11,956 nucleotides of DNA from a bacterium (GTDB lineage Bacteria > CSSED10-310 > JAJRTK01): positions 1 through 11,956 of the forward strand of contig JAJRTK010000019.1 in NCBI GenBank assembly GCA_024278345.1, in the 5' to 3' direction. The translations under genes and the position numbers were made by a program. The notes beneath the pieces were generated by a model. The model was not told the origin of the DNA and did not search any database. It was given only the letters and a program-made list of their open reading frames with translations. Position 1 is the first letter of the stretch. The number at the start of each line of letters is the position of its first letter. Shown one piece after another: positions 1,433 through 11,956 of the stretch.

Positions 1433-4332
1433 ATGCCGAACCGGTCAACTCTGGCGATGCTCCTTGGCTTTGGTGTGCTCCTTGGTTCTTGGGCCATGAA
1501 TGCGGATGCAGCGCCTTCGGGATCCTTTCCGTTTCGCCATAAGGTGGAGCTTTATCGGGACAAGGAAGGGGATGTGATGGCCTTCTCGTTGAAGCTTGAA
1601 CAGCCTTTTCTGGCGGAAGAGTTCGAGAAGAGCAATATCTGCGCCTTCGGCCTCTGGATGGCGGCGCGCACTTGATTTACCCGAAGGAGACGAAGTTTCA
1701 CCAGAAGCACGCGGCATTTTTCGGGCGTCTTCGTGGAGAGGGTCGGACACGGTTGGAGCTTTCGTACGAGATTGTCTCGGAGAACCTGGATGGCTCGAAG
1801 AAAGTGGAGGTCCACCGCGGGATCGTTGAGCTTGGGATTCCTGGTCAGGAGACGGGTTCGCGGACGCTATTCCTTGACTGGGCACGGCATCAGAACGACT
1901 ATTTTTCCAATATCCTCCGTTACTATCCCAAAGAGACTTTTTTTCAGTACTGCCTGTTGCAATCCCATGCCCGCTATGGGGTGGTGGCGCCGACAATGTT
2001 TGTTCCCGGGCCTGGTGACGCCAAGATCGAAGGGGACTTGTACCGGGTATTCACAGGTTCGCTGGCGTTGCAGGAGTCGCTTCAGCGGCAGTCGCTTCGA
2101 GGGCGGTCTCGGCCTGGAGATTTGAATATCCACATCAGCTCGCTTCGAGGGCCTGAGCTCAAGTCGTTGGATTATCGGAAGCTGTTGAAGAAGAAGAGGG
2201 AAGATGGGGTTGAGCCAGAGCTTCATTCTCTGGCGGCGTTTGTTCCCGACGACCAGTATTTTCTTTACTTCGACTCCATGAAGGTGGCGAACGACCTCGT
2301 GGAGATGGGGTCGGAATGGGGAGACAATCTTCTTCGTCTGTTGACCCTCCACGCTCGGCACAACCGGTTGGACCAGAAGCTGGAAACGCAGCTTTGCCTT
2401 CGCCGGACGCCCTTGACCAAACTTTTTGCCGATGGTGTCATCGCCGAGATGGCCATGACGGGTTCGGACCCGTTCTTTGCCGAGGGCACGGACGTGACGG
2501 TGCTCTTGCGTCTGTCGAAGCCGTTGATTTTCGAAGGAATGGCTTCGGCTTGGATGGAGGAGACGCGGAAAGCTTCTCCCGGGTTGGAAGAGCGGACGTT
2601 CAACTACCGTGGACACAAGGTGTTGGCCCGTTACACACCGGATCGGCTGGTGAGTTCGTTCGTGGTGCGGGATGGTGACGTGGTGATTTTTTCGAACTCG
2701 CACCGTGCGATCCGGAAGATGGTGGAGACGCGGATCGGCGTATTCCCCGCGCTTTCCAATGCATTGGATTATCGCTACAGCACGACGCTGTTGCCCCCGT
2801 CGAAAGAGAAGGGCTCCGGTTACTTCTTCGCCTCGGAGGCCTTTTTGCGCCGGCAGACCTCGCCAGCCATGAAAATTTCGGAAAAGCGGCGTCTGCAGTG
2901 CTTCAACAATTTGGTGATGCTCAACAATGCATCGCTTTTCTATCGCCTGGAGTACGGCCGGTCGCCGGAATCCCTGAGCGAGCTTGTGGACAAGAAGTTT
3001 GTCGATGCCTCGAAGCTCGTCTGCCCCCATGGGGGCGTCTATGCCTTCGACGCGGATCGAGATACGGGCACCTGTTCCCTCCACAATCGCATACGGTATT
3101 TGACGCCCAATGCGGAGTTGGAGGTTTTGAAGGTCTCCAATGACGAACGGAACGAGTACAACCGCTACAAAGAGCGGTATGGAACTTTCTGGAAATCGGT
3201 TTTCGACCCCATTGCCCTCCGGATCCATACGGAGCCGGATCTGGCCCTTGAGCTCTTGGTTCTGCCATTCGCCAATGGAAAGATCTACAGGGATTTGCGG
3301 AAGGCATTGGACGTGCGAGCCAGCGGTTTCGATGTGTCGAGGATCGCTAAGACGGCCGTGGTTTCGCTTGGAATGGCCCTTGGCCGAGAGTCCGTTGCCC
3401 GGTTCCTTCGGCAGATTCCCGGAATCCCCGAGGCCCTCGAAGCCGATCCCACGTTGACGGATCTTGGCTGGATCGGCGACCGGTTAGCGTTCCACTTCTG
3501 TGACGGTGACCTGATCCTGGAGGTCGATCCATTGCAACTGAAGACCTTGAACCTCATGGGCGAAACTTCAGTGGGGCTCCAGGCGATGGTGGCCACGACC
3601 CTTTTGGCAACGAACCTGCCGATCTACGTCACCATTGACGTGGAGGATTTGGAGAAGGCGGAACGTCTGCTCGAGCAGTTAGCCTCGAGGATCTTCCTGA
3701 AAAAAGGCCAGTTTGTTGGGCTTCCCACGGGTCTCGACGCCTACCGGCTCCCGGCCTATCGCGGGACTCCCGTCTACGTTCTGAGCTTTCAGCTCTACGC
3801 GCTCAAGGTCCGGCTCCACGTAGCCCTTGTGGGGGAGCAGCTTGTGGCCGCCACCAAGCCTGAAACGCTGCGAGCCGCCATCGATGCCGCCATGACCGAA
3901 GGAGCCAAGGAGCCGCCGCCAGCCCATGCCCAGCTCCGCTTCCACCGGCACGCCCTGGACCGGTTGGCCACGAGCTTGGAGCTCTATTGGGCGGAGAAAT
4001 CACGCCTTTCGTGTCACAGCAACATCACGTCGATCCAGAACTTGGTGAAATTGTACGGCATTGCTATTGAGGAAGTTGATCGCCTGAGCGAGCTGAAGTA
4101 CGGCGTCCGCTATTATTGTCCCGACGGAGGCCACTACAGCTACGACGAAGGGCGGGATCAGGTGGTTTGTTCGGTACACGGCAATCGCCAGAGCTCCCGT
4201 CAAGATCCGGCCTCTCCGGCGGAGAGCTCGTTTCAGCGGTTTATCCAGAGTCTTGATGAGGTGGTAGCGACGCTCCGCTTCAGTGAGGAAAGCCTGTTAG
4301 CGACGCTGCGGGTGCGGCGTCCGGAGCGGTAG
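1433..4332 (+). CDS. Large exported protein with two pilin-like CPxGG modules, frame broken once
   Basis: Function unknown. ATG at 1433 has GGAG 6 nt upstream and encodes a signal peptide (hydrophobic LAMLLGFGVLLGSW, likely cleavage near NADA-AP), so the product is exported. The first frame runs to a TGA at 1673; the second runs from before TTG 1672 to 4332. They join if one base is restored near 1636 (SN then YLRLRPLDGG), giving about 966 aa. In that numbering, 150-450 and 570-840 carry diffuse alpha/beta sequence like DUF3352-type proteins, for example YVTIDVEDLEKAERLLEQLA (tentative). Two Cys motifs stand out: C490-F-N-N-L, CPHGG at 531 and CSLH at 548; then C861-HSN, CPDGG at 896 and CSVHG at 913. 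They resemble the C-terminal part of some Gram-positive-type and pseudopilin sequences. There is no slippery heptamer at the break, so it is a mutation or a sequencing error. TTG 1672 as a true start lacks a ribosome site. Confidence 0.75.
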
Positions 4333-7053: not shown

Positions 7054-8889
7054 ATGGAGTCGCCGCATCTTTCCCGTCGCTGGACCTTGAGAGACTGGGT
7101 TCTTTTCTCAGGGGCTTTGCTTGTGGCGCTGGGGTTAGGGCTTTCCCTGGCCGATCCGGAGCTCGTGGGGATCTGGGAGGACGATGCTATCTATTTGTCG
7201 GCGGCGGCGGCTCAGGCCAGGGGGGCCGGCCTCGCCATCGAGCTTTTGCCTGGATCCCCGCTCTTGGCGAAACAGCCGCCCCTCTATCCCTGGCTCTTGT
7301 CCCTGGTGATTCGAGCAGGCGCGGATCTGGCGCATCCTCGTGGTCTCTGGTGGATCCTCCTGTTTCAAGGCTCGATCTTTGCCTTCGCCGCGGCTCTTTA
7401 CGGCGGGGTTCTGCTTCGCCGGATGGAGCTTGGTTTGGCGGAGCGGGTGGCGGCACTGGTGTTGTTCGTCGTCAACGCAACGATCCTGGGAGTGGCCACG
7501 ACCACCATGTCGGAGGGGCTGTTCTTACTGCTTTTCACGGGACAGCTCCTCTGCCTGGTTCCCCTGTTGGGCATGACTGCGGTGGAGAAGGATACGAAGC
7601 CCCCTGGCCTCGCGTCTGGCGTCTCACGGAAATCGGGCCCCGGGAGGGGGTGGCTCCTGGCGTTTCTCTTTTTCGCATTCACCACGGCGGTGTGCGCGAC
7701 GCGTGGGATAGGATTGGTCATGTCGTTGGGCTTCCTTCCCCTTTTGCTTGCTCGCCGCAGGTGGTTGGCGGTGGTGGCCCTAGCGACCGCGTTTGCCCTG
7801 GCTTTGGGTGTCAGTGGCCATTTGCGGGCCAAGGCTCGTGCGGATCGAGAGGCCCGCCTTGCCTCCATCCAGATGTCTCTCAGCTATTACGTCGATTATG
7901 ACAATCAGTTGTTTTTTTACCGGAAGGCCTGGGCCGAGGGAGGCACCGGCGGGCTTTTGAGGGCCTTGGGCGCCGTGGCCGCTGCCAATGCCGAGAGCGG
8001 GCTCGACTCCTTCGCGCAGCTCTTCTTTCCCACCCGGAAGCTCCAGCAGCCGGGGAGCCAGGAAGCTCCATGGTCCAGGCGCTTGGAGAAGAGCATGGGC
8101 CTTGCCCTGTTCTTGTTGTGCCTCCTGGGGCTCTTGCAGGGGGACCGGACCCGATGGGCTCTTGTTCCGCCGCTTCTTCTTTTCACGTGCTTTTTCGCGG
8201 TTTGGACCTGGCCTTTCAGCGCCAGGTTCTGGGTCTCGGCCATGCCCTTGCTTGCGGTGGGGCTGGTCCGGGGCTGTAGAAAGTTTGACAGGATTGGGCC
8301 TTTCTTGCTCTGGAGCCTGGTGGTGGCCTCGGCCTCCATGCATGGGCTGGTGCTGGGCCAGCGGATGTTTCCTGGCCAGGCCACGGCCGCCGGAACCTCG
8401 GTTGCATCAACGGCCAATCCGGCAAGCTCGGAAAACCAATCCACCCCAGAGGAAGCTCCCCCCATCGATGAATTGCAGCGCTACCGAGCCTGGCTACGGG
8501 ATGCCGTGGCCGGAAGGCGCCAAGATCTTCTGCTGGGGGGGTTCACGACCCTTTGGACTGCAAGAACCGTGGGAATCCGCGGGCTTTGGATTGGAGCTCT
8601 TCTCGACCCCGCGGACCAGGTGTCGGTCACCCTTCAACTAAGGGACGGGGCGGATCCCGAACCGCGCACGATCCGAAAATTTGCCCAGCGGCTGGCGGAT
8701 CTGGCGCAATTCTTGCCACCCGGGGCCCGGGTGCTAGTCCAGGTCGATGGCAGCCTTTCCCCTCCGGTTTTCCAGCTTCTCCAAGTTCTGGCTTCGGCCG
8801 GCCTGCTCCGGGAGTTGAGCCCGCCCAGTCCTGTCGCCCGGCTGTACGAGTTTATCTTACCCCTTTCCAGGCCGGGGCGGTCACGATGA
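7054..8889 (+). CDS. GT-C family polytopic membrane glycosyltransferase (PMT/ArnT-like)
   Basis: A 611-aa integral membrane protein of the polyprenyl-phosphate-sugar-dependent GT-C superfamily, which transfers sugars to lipid or protein acceptors on the periplasmic side. After a first membrane helix (about 15-34) comes the signature loop: WEDDAIYLSAAAAQARG (41-57, acidic pair D43-D44 as catalytic candidates) and KQPPLYPWLL (73-82). About ten further hydrophobic segments follow (roughly 98-121, 131-150, 154-173, 199-233 as two, 237-255, 349-361, 369-389, 392-406, 416-436). A low-complexity Ala/Ser/Thr linker (441-470) leads to a soluble C-terminal domain (about 471-605). There is no good ribosome site; ATG lies 4 nt after the preceding stop, so coupling is likely. 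Why it sits in an AtuA operon is unclear. Sugar donor and acceptor cannot be read from the sequence. Confidence 0.8.
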   Translation: MESPHLSRRWTLRDWVLFSGALLVALGLGLSLADPELVGIWEDDAIYLSAAAAQARGAGLAIELLPGSPLLAKQPPLYPWLLSLVIRAGADLAHPRGLWWILLFQGSIFAFAAALYGGVLLRRMELGLAERVAALVLFVVNATILGVATTTMSEGLFLLLFTGQLLCLVPLLGMTAVEKDTKPPGLASGVSRKSGPGRGWLLAFLFFAFTTAVCATRGIGLVMSLGFLPLLLARRRWLAVVALATAFALALGVSGHLRAKARADREARLASIQMSLSYYVDYDNQLFFYRKAWAEGGTGGLLRALGAVAAANAESGLDSFAQLFFPTRKLQQPGSQEAPWSRRLEKSMGLALFLLCLLGLLQGDRTRWALVPPLLLFTCFFAVWTWPFSARFWVSAMPLLAVGLVRGCRKFDRIGPFLLWSLVVASASMHGLVLGQRMFPGQATAAGTSVASTANPASSENQSTPEEAPPIDELQRYRAWLRDAVAGRRQDLLLGGFTTLWTARTVGIRGLWIGALLDPADQVSVTLQLRDGADPEPRTIRKFAQRLADLAQFLPPGARVLVQVDGSLSPPVFQLLQVLASAGLLRELSPPSPVARLYEFILPLSRPGRSR

Positions 8890-8963
8890 AGGTTTGGCAA
8901 ACCATCCTGGGCCACAGCGCATGGACGGTGACTAGGCGGCGCGAGCTCAGGTGGTTGCGATGA
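8886..8963 (+). CDS. 25-codon mini-ORF resembling the start of the next gene
   Basis: A tiny frame that starts with ATG inside the glycosyltransferase stop (ATGA at 8886-8889) and ends with TGA inside the next start (ATGA at 8960-8963). It begins MKVWQTILG, close to MKIGQIILG at the start of the following gene, then turns basic (TVTRRRELRWLR). It fills the gap between its neighbours exactly, so it could pass ribosomes along as a coupling leader, or be the stump of a tandem copy of the 142-aa gene. The two readings are not exclusive. I cannot show that it makes a stable peptide. Confidence 0.4.
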   Translation: MKVWQTILGHSAWTVTRRRELRWLR

Positions 8964-8986
8964 AGATCGGGCAAATCATCCTGGGC
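8886..8986 (+). repeat. Two copies of a 27-nt gene-start sequence, 74 nt apart
   Basis: Bases 8886-8912 and 8960-8986 match at 23 of 27 positions, both beginning ATGAAG and ending CATCCTGGGC. The similarity fades soon after (about 7 of the next 12). The repeat spans the start codons and first nine codons of the mini-ORF and of the 142-aa gene. Confidence 0.7.
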
Positions 8987-9388
8987 GAAAGGGAACGGGT
9001 TGAGCTGAGTCTCCGGGAATCGCCCCTTGGCTCGGACGCGGAGCTCGTGGTCCGCGTCTCCATCCAGCTCCACAAGCTGCAATGCACGACCTCTGGTTCC
9101 TCGACCTGGGCCGCGCTCCTGCGGTTTCGCTCGCAGCTTTCCACCATGGTAAGGGATCTTGAGGGCTCTTGCATCCTGGACATCAAAGGAGGCGGCCGGA
9201 TCGACGGCAGCTTCAATGCGCAGGGGCACGTGGTCTTTCTCATCCAAGCTCAGGGTAGCTCCCGAGGAACAGGCCACGAGTTCAAGCAGGGCAGTCAGTG
9301 GGCGTTGAGTGACCGGTTTGCCTGCTTTCCGGTCTGCCTTCACGAGGCCGTGGACCAGTGTGATCGTGCCTTGAGAAGCACCCGTTGA
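8960..9388 (+). CDS. Hypothetical 142-aa protein
   Basis: Function unknown. The first 97 residues look like alternating beta strands with a short helical part: VELSLRE (14-20), ELVVRVSIQL (28-37), WAALLRFRSQLSTMVRDLEG (50-69), then CILDIKGGGRIDGSFNAQG (71-89) and HVVFLIQA (90-97). This layout is reminiscent of small bacterial WapI/DUF6228-type beta proteins, an impression only. The tail (98-142) is less regular and carries Cys122, 126 and 134. ATG 8960 has AGGTGG 5 nt upstream and overlaps the mini-ORF stop; an in-frame GTG at 8951 is less likely. A long minus-strand frame overlaps it (8852-9601), but that lacks a ribosome site and crosses the glycosyltransferase end. As last gene of the operon it may be accessory to the glycosyltransferase. 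Confidence 0.6.
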   Translation: MKIGQIILGERERVELSLRESPLGSDAELVVRVSIQLHKLQCTTSGSSTWAALLRFRSQLSTMVRDLEGSCILDIKGGGRIDGSFNAQGHVVFLIQAQGSSRGTGHEFKQGSQWALSDRFACFPVCLHEAVDQCDRALRSTR

Positions 9389-9872: not shown

Positions 9873-9905
9873 GGCCTCGTCCATCGTTCGGGCCACTCTC
9901 ATGAA
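9873..9905 (+). repeat. 33-nt dispersed repeat, copy 1
   Basis: GGCCTCGTCCATCGTT and the following 17 nt match 11820-11852 at 28 of 33 positions. In copy 2 it leads into a hairpin array; here it leads into a different set of hairpins. It appears to be a module of the same intergenic repeat zone. Confidence 0.6.
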
Positions 9906-10093
9906 CCCAGGGTGGAGGGCGGCCATCGCCTCCCACTTGGAGCGCCAGGCAGAGCCTCGCATTTCAGGGCTCTGCCCAGACCCGCAAGGGGGGCGAGCGC
10001 TCCCCCCACCCACAGCCGGCGGAGCCGCGCAACCATGCCGGCAACCGGAACCGACTAAAGGGAGAATCGGTTTTGCCGCGCCCTGGACGAGTC
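9906..10093. repeat. Hairpin-rich non-coding region
   Basis: No convincing gene. Visible stems: a perfect 9-bp GGCAGAGCC/GGCTCTGCC at 9948-9976 with an 11-nt loop; a 6-bp G-run/C-run stem at 9988-10007 around CGAGCGCT; and AACCGA/TCGGTT at 10049-10072, followed by TT. The last could end transcription arriving from the left. Short open frames here on both strands lack ribosome sites and are low-complexity. Confidence 0.45.
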
Positions 10094-10359
10094 GGGTATC
10101 CACCTAAGCTGGGACACGCAACAAAACCAAAAAAAGACGCGGAGCGTACAAAAACGTGGGTCCAGGGAGGTAACTCCCTGGTGGGTGCAGGGCGAAGCCC
10201 TGCCAGGGGACGGGGGATGGAATCCCCGGACGACCTTCGGGTAACGCACGGCGTGACCCTTCGAGTCACGCAAACGTGACCCGCCAAGCAACAGCGAGGC
10301 GTTGCCCGGACGCTTTCGATTCCACAGTCCCGGGAATGTCCCGCCTTGCGTGGATACCC
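10094..10359. mobile_element. 266-bp inverted-repeat-bounded hairpin element (MITE-like)
   Basis: The ends are 23-nt imperfect inverted repeats: 10094-10116 (GGGTATCCACCTAAG...) and 10337-10359, matching at 19 of 23 positions. Between them is a string of perfect stems: 8 bp at 10162-10181 (CCAGGGAG/CTCCCTGG), 7 bp at 10187-10203 (GCAGGGC/GCCCTGC, loop GAA), 6 bp at 10213-10227 (GGGGAT/ATCCCC), 7 bp at 10251-10271 (GCGTGAC/GTCACGC) and 5 bp at 10288-10305. No protein of credible type is encoded, so if mobile it depends on a transposase elsewhere. Related ends occur at 162-184 and 11594-11616. I see no clear target-site duplication. It ends 26 nt past the stop of the minus gene at 10386-11573, so its right end may also serve as that gene's 3' region. 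Confidence 0.6.
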
Positions 10360-11593: not shown

Positions 11594-11708
11594 GGGTATC
11601 AACGTAAGCCGGGACACCCGCCAAAACCAAGACGCAACGCGTCGTACATGAATGTGGGTCCAGGGAGCGAGCTCCCTGGTGGGTGCGGGGCAAAGCCCTG
11701 CCGGGGAC
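11594..11708 (+). repeat. Second, left-half copy of the inverted-repeat hairpin element
   Basis: From 11594 the sequence follows 10094 onward: the terminal repeat (11594-11616), a CCAAAACCAA stretch, a GTACA..GTGGGTCCAGGGAG segment, and two hairpins, CCAGGGAG/CTCCCTGG (11660-11679) and GCGGGGC/GCCCTGC (11685-11701, one G-T pair). Resemblance stops near 11708, and no right terminus is seen before the window ends. It begins 21 nt before the start codon of the minus gene, so that gene's promoter must lie within or across this repeat. Confidence 0.65.
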
Positions 11709-11819: not shown

Positions 11820-11852
11820 GGCCTCGTCCATCGTTTCGGCCACCCTCTCGAA
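11820..11852 (+). repeat. 33-nt dispersed repeat, copy 2
   Basis: Matches 9873-9905 at 28 of 33 positions. It is followed by an ACGCGTAGCGTACAT segment similar to the one that precedes the hairpins at 10159 and 11657, linking the two repeat types. Confidence 0.6.
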
Positions 11853-11874
11853 AAACGCGTAGCGTACATAGAGG

Positions 11875-11956
11875 GGTCCAGGGAGCTAGCTTCCTGGCGA
11901 GGTCCAGGAGCAGCGCTCCTGGCGAAGGTCCGGAGGCGGAGCCTCCGCCGGGGTCC
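11875..11956 (+). repeat. Tandem 26-bp hairpin units, running off the window
   Basis: GGTCC begins at 11875, 11901, 11927 and 11952, spacing 26, 26 and 25 nt. Each unit is a hairpin of different sequence: CCAGGGAGC/GCTTCCTGG (11878-11897, one G-T pair), CCAGGAGC/GCTCCTGG (11904-11922) and CGGAGGC/GCCTCCG (11931-11947). Two units of the same design sit at 10159-10203 and at 11657-11701. The array continues past the edge. Confidence 0.75.

Follow-up and report, generated by a model that had tools for sequence, protein, structure and literature searches.

We found that the 266-bp element at positions 10094-10359 is one copy of a high-copy MITE family, here called type 1, which in all likelihood is moved in trans by a DUF6399-type transposase and carries a modular hairpin cassette homologous to that of a second family, type 2. 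The window, i.e. the whole stretch of 11,956 bp analysed here, is the complete contig C324 of a 6.06 Mb draft genome in 550 contigs. This assembly is 87.9% complete and its contigs are broken inside repeats; indeed, both window edges, like those of many other contigs, fall inside repeat copies of MITE type, and such repeats probably account for much of the fragmentation of the draft genome. Elsewhere in the window, the overlapping open reading frames 1253-1675 and 1672-4332 look like a single gene frameshifted near 1660, and an imperfect 49-bp direct repeat (76%; 8876-8924 and 8950-8998) lies at a gene start.

The element has the anatomy that the initial annotation had described, on the forward strand. 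Its 23-nt imperfect inverted repeats, on the left at 10094-10116 and on the right at 10337-10359, are complementary at 19 of 23 positions (83%), and it holds no protein, since no open reading frame of at least 80 aa is confined to it. The announced stem-loops are present as well, and the 266 nt fold much better than shuffled sequences (z = -5.7 as RNA and z = -4.1 as DNA), none of 200 shuffles equalling the element in either case. The left end is followed by an A-rich inner arm (10117-10155), which exists in several alternative types among the copies and whose last part, GACGCGGAGCGTACAAAAAC, is homologous to an arm of the type-2 MITE. Then come hairpin H1 (10162-10181; 8-bp stem CCAGGGAG/CTCCCTGG), H2 (10187-10203; 7-bp stem GCAGGGC/GCCCTGC), H3 (10211-10229), H4 (10251-10271; GCGTGAC/GTCACGC), a module that in other elements ranges from absent to tandemly repeated several times, and a weak fifth stem-loop (10282-10301; CGCC...GGCG).

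Two further type-1 copies lie on the same contig, both on the forward strand. Positions 162-184, identical to the right end of the element (23 of 23), are the right end of a second copy truncated by the contig start. Positions 11594-11616 match the left-end type in direct orientation, in keeping with the inverted relation to the right end noted in the initial annotation; they open a third copy whose hairpins continue to about 11711, the contig ending before any right end. A type-2 MITE on the same strand (11820-11956), with its end GGCCTCG..CATCGTTTCGGCCAC and a hairpin array, is truncated by the contig end. Beside the leftmost copy, the sequence at 1-136 (GGTGCCACCGTTTCGGCGAAGAAAATTGT) recurs partly as the flank of the copies on C205 and C438 and is thus probably another repeat serving as target. 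On the other side of that copy, a near-perfect 18-bp palindrome at 247-288 (GGCCCCGGTCATCGGCGG...CCACCGATGACCGGGGCC) resembles two type-2 ends placed back to back. In addition, a decayed type-2 end followed by hairpins (9873-10060) separates a tRNA gene from the element at 10094-10359.

The number of copies was assessed by counting occurrences of the end pattern TGTCCCGCYTTNCGTGGATACCC, with up to three mismatches and the reversed pattern as control, and by reading about 0.54 Mb of sequence picked mostly for repeat-bearing contigs. The search of the genome with the terminal 23 nt gave 491 occurrences (249 + 242) and none for the reversed control, and that with the full 266-bp element gave about 40 long matches. 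Neither of the outcomes that the initial annotation had named as refuting was observed: many other copies carry an end on each side, and homology stops at these ends. We read 46 distinct elements with both ends, of 189-1009 bp and most often 211-312 bp; type-1 MITEs mostly measure about 189-360 bp, and four larger elements (517-1009 bp) include composites with pieces of transposase. When the flanks of 44 copies were examined, we observed a perfect 8-bp target duplication in 14 and a match at seven of eight positions in 4 more, against 1 perfect pair and 2 at seven of eight among 1,892 pairings of left flanks with the right flanks of other elements. An exact duplication is absent from over half of the elements; some are shifted by one base (CCTGGCAT in L057 and CGGGATTC in L089). 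Copies have also inserted within copies: the target duplicated in L145, TATCTACG, is part of an older end, and L026 contains two overlapping or nested elements. Over rejoined flanks, the stop-free frames have a median of 256 aa versus 358 aa at random points, a mild tendency to avoid genes in a small sample, and for two insertions the frame is about 490-500 aa long. The type-1 elements are therefore a MITE family, as established by their repetition, their ends and their 8-bp duplications, and the earlier proposal of a mobile non-autonomous element is well supported by the matching ends, the copy number and these duplications. The 266-bp element had no match in 59 other genomes, plasmids and phages. 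The family is real, high-copy, new in sequence as far as we searched and of a known kind.

The copy at 10094-10359 itself is without target duplication, its left flank being GACGAGTC (10086-10093) and its right flank CGTGGATA. The duplicate of GACGAGTC is absent from the window contig and present on C135, at the right end of a copy 99% identical to that of the window, C135 itself ending within this element. The original insertion therefore probably linked the left flank of the window to C135. The right flank, CGTGGATACTCATG, is similar to the terminus of an older GAGTATCC-type element. The flanks of the window copy thus derive from two sites, which recombination between two copies would explain, as would a misjoin of the assembly at 10094-10359.

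What moves such an element was sought among the transposases of the same genome. The Pfam family PF19936 (DUF6399) is described as of 'unknown function'. Its profile gave three matches above the cut-off. On C188, a C-terminal fragment stops about 25 bp short of a type-1 end; on C36, an N-terminal helix-turn-helix part lies inside such an end, at a distance of about 107 bp; and on C390, transposase remnants and MITE form a composite of 832 bp between two type-1 ends. These are fragments only, no intact DUF6399 gene being found in this 87.9% complete draft, and they have the 23-nt ends alone in common with the window MITE, the inner arms being different. A scan of public genomes with the type-1 end gave, among the matches listed, exact matches in cyanobacteria. 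In one of these (L063), the N-terminal part of a DUF6399-type transposase gene adjoins the end; cyanobacterial plasmids carry relatives of this gene that bear the DUF6399 annotation. The Crinalium plasmid pCRI9333.07 has an intact DUF6399 gene, accompanied by a small gene, between perfect ends GGCTACCAATCTAAGGCGGGACA, which are related to type 1 and flanked by the 8-bp duplication CGTTTTCT. Ends are thus held in common with an autonomous element, represented by DUF6399 fragments in the genome of the window and by an intact element with related ends elsewhere. Neither DUF6399 relatives nor the type-1 end pattern were found in viral contigs, and our literature search returned no paper naming DUF6399.

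When DUF6399 proteins were aligned, we observed that DETF, SD.A.AL and S..EG.NG are conserved, motifs which may belong to a DDE active site interrupted by a long insertion; comparison of the profile with solved structures gave nothing meaningful and so revealed no relative of solved structure at the sequence level. We infer that a DUF6399 transposase moves, or moved, the type-1 MITE. The transposase, most likely of the DUF6399 (PF19936) type with a DDE-compatible set of conserved D, D and E, would act in trans to cut out or copy the protein-less element via its 23-nt ends; the element would then insert elsewhere, leaving an 8-bp target duplication, and the GC-rich hairpin cassette, homologous to that of the second family, would ride between the ends.

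Two other mobilisers were considered. The many hairpins and the high copy number are also what a REP/BIME-type array would show, in which a Y1 (TnpA-REP) transposase works on hairpins of single-stranded DNA. A transposase of this type, as had been suggested, finds no support: the sole Y1 match (PF01797) reaches 21.5 bits, below the curated cut-off of 23. The HUH mechanism of IS200/IS605 and REP systems leaves no target duplication, so the 8-bp duplications, like the long inverted ends, contradict such an origin. Neither of the two marks of a REPIN, a Y1 transposase and the absence of target duplication, is supported here, and we regard this origin as next to negligible. An ISL3-family transposase was the other candidate, as these enzymes also generate 8-bp duplications, and C5 carries a gene of this family, followed after about 410 bp by a type-1 end. 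However, that copy appears to stop just past the gene at an end of its own, GAAGAGCC, presumably typical of ISL3, and the type-1 end farther out is part of a separate MITE remnant nearby. The type-1 ends therefore do not appear to be those of the ISL3 copy, whose gene is itself broken by a type-2 MITE, and mobilisation by ISL3 is highly improbable. No IS256 (PF00872) was found in the genome.

The preferred mobiliser, a DUF6399 transposase, also accords with the second MITE family. The type-2 end GTGGCCSGTACCATGACCRAGGCC occurs 244 times in the genome (control, 0). We read eleven complete copies, nine of which measure 201 bp, and six carry perfect 8-bp duplications; another, the 201-bp copy that interrupts the ISL3 transposase gene (C5:335-535, L151), has GTTCAAGCG on both sides. 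In Thiodictyon, a DUF6399 gene lies between type-2-like ends GGCCTTGATCATCGTTCCGGCCAC with the 8-bp duplication GTCCAACC; in another genome of the same phylum (G003), three DUF6399 fragments adjoin type-2 ends, and C387 of the genome of the window bears a DUF6399 fragment closest to the Thiodictyon protein. Since type-1 and type-2 ends are each found at DUF6399 genes, the two MITE families seem to pair with two DUF6399 subtypes. A probable role thus emerges for DUF6399, that of a transposase whose elements have ends that begin with GG and measure about 24 nt, flanked by 8-bp duplications; this type is seen in cyanobacteria, gammaproteobacteria and the phylum of the window genome.

The initial annotation had remarked that there are more stems than a simple MITE needs. 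This remark was borne out, as the stems make up a separate conserved cassette. In an alignment of 34 elements, the central cassette is conserved, the arms beside the ends are of several types, and whole hairpin modules have been exchanged, lost or gained, or tandemly repeated. About 105 cassette matches were found in 0.54 Mb, almost all beside type-1 ends. The type-2 MITE contains a 77% identical cassette stretch preceded by the homologous A-rich arm, and we infer that the cassette was exchanged between the two families. Among 25 distinct cassettes, 96.8% of cells are paired; H1 is invariant, H2 shows one-sided changes only and H3 shows two-sided (compensatory) changes at three pairs. The covariation check that had been proposed gave a score of 0.089 versus 0.055 for shuffled alignments, with none of 500 shuffles reaching it, in a control that ignores relatedness. 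These data support the upkeep of the stems as palindromes, via selection or template-switch correction.

Such data, together with the folding of the element and the sharing of one cassette type by two MITE families, would also be expected of a repeated structured non-coding RNA family in which the hairpins are the functional unit and mobility is incidental. Only H3 provides two-sided changes, however, H1 never varying and H2 varying on one side alone, and template-switch correction can also preserve palindromes. Moreover, no Rfam family attained its gathering score, the best relaxed hit reaching 21.2 bits for a requirement of 58.6, and the cassette is almost confined to MITE interiors. We thus consider an RNA family very unlikely. 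It is somewhat less doubtful, but still improbable, that the cassette is an exchangeable functional module with stems under selection, kept by two MITE families with different transposases, for example because it insulates transcription, stabilises RNA or, as a single-strand structure, aids transposition; our comparison of cassettes gave no sign of a specific hairpin function. The hairpins rather appear to be cargo maintained as palindromes between the ends of DUF6399-mobilised MITEs, and two families with a common cargo are a natural case for testing the purpose of hairpins in MITEs.

Like the type-1 family, the bacterial MITEs Nezha, NEMIS/Correia, RUP, MITEAba12 and others encode no protein and have inverted ends of 20-30 nt, target duplications, high copy number and strong secondary structure. 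REP/BIME arrays likewise consist of rows of GC-rich palindromes; unlike them, the present family has long inverted ends and 8-bp duplications, with no supported Y1 transposase. In Leptolyngbya-type cyanobacteria, we also observed small elements with the ends of the window MITE (L059:2235-2364, 130 bp, and L062:5222-5366, 145 bp). Their ends match the same 23-nt pattern, and their interior is different and without the GC-rich hairpin cassette; that they are Nezha-like is a lead only. Nezha was proposed to be mobilised by ISNpu3-like elements (PMC3049150). The DUF6399 elements of Crinalium and Thiodictyon likewise have GG-starting ends of about 24 nt and an 8-bp duplication, and the Acaryochloris DUF6399 gene has a related end, of which a single clear one was seen; in contrast to the window MITE, which encodes none, all three encode a protein of 520-560 aa. 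The less usual features of the type-1 family are its probable DUF6399 mobiliser and a cassette common to two MITE families. Unlike known bacterial MITEs, hundreds of copies from two families share a modular hairpin cassette in one genome, with DUF6399 transposases as their probable movers.
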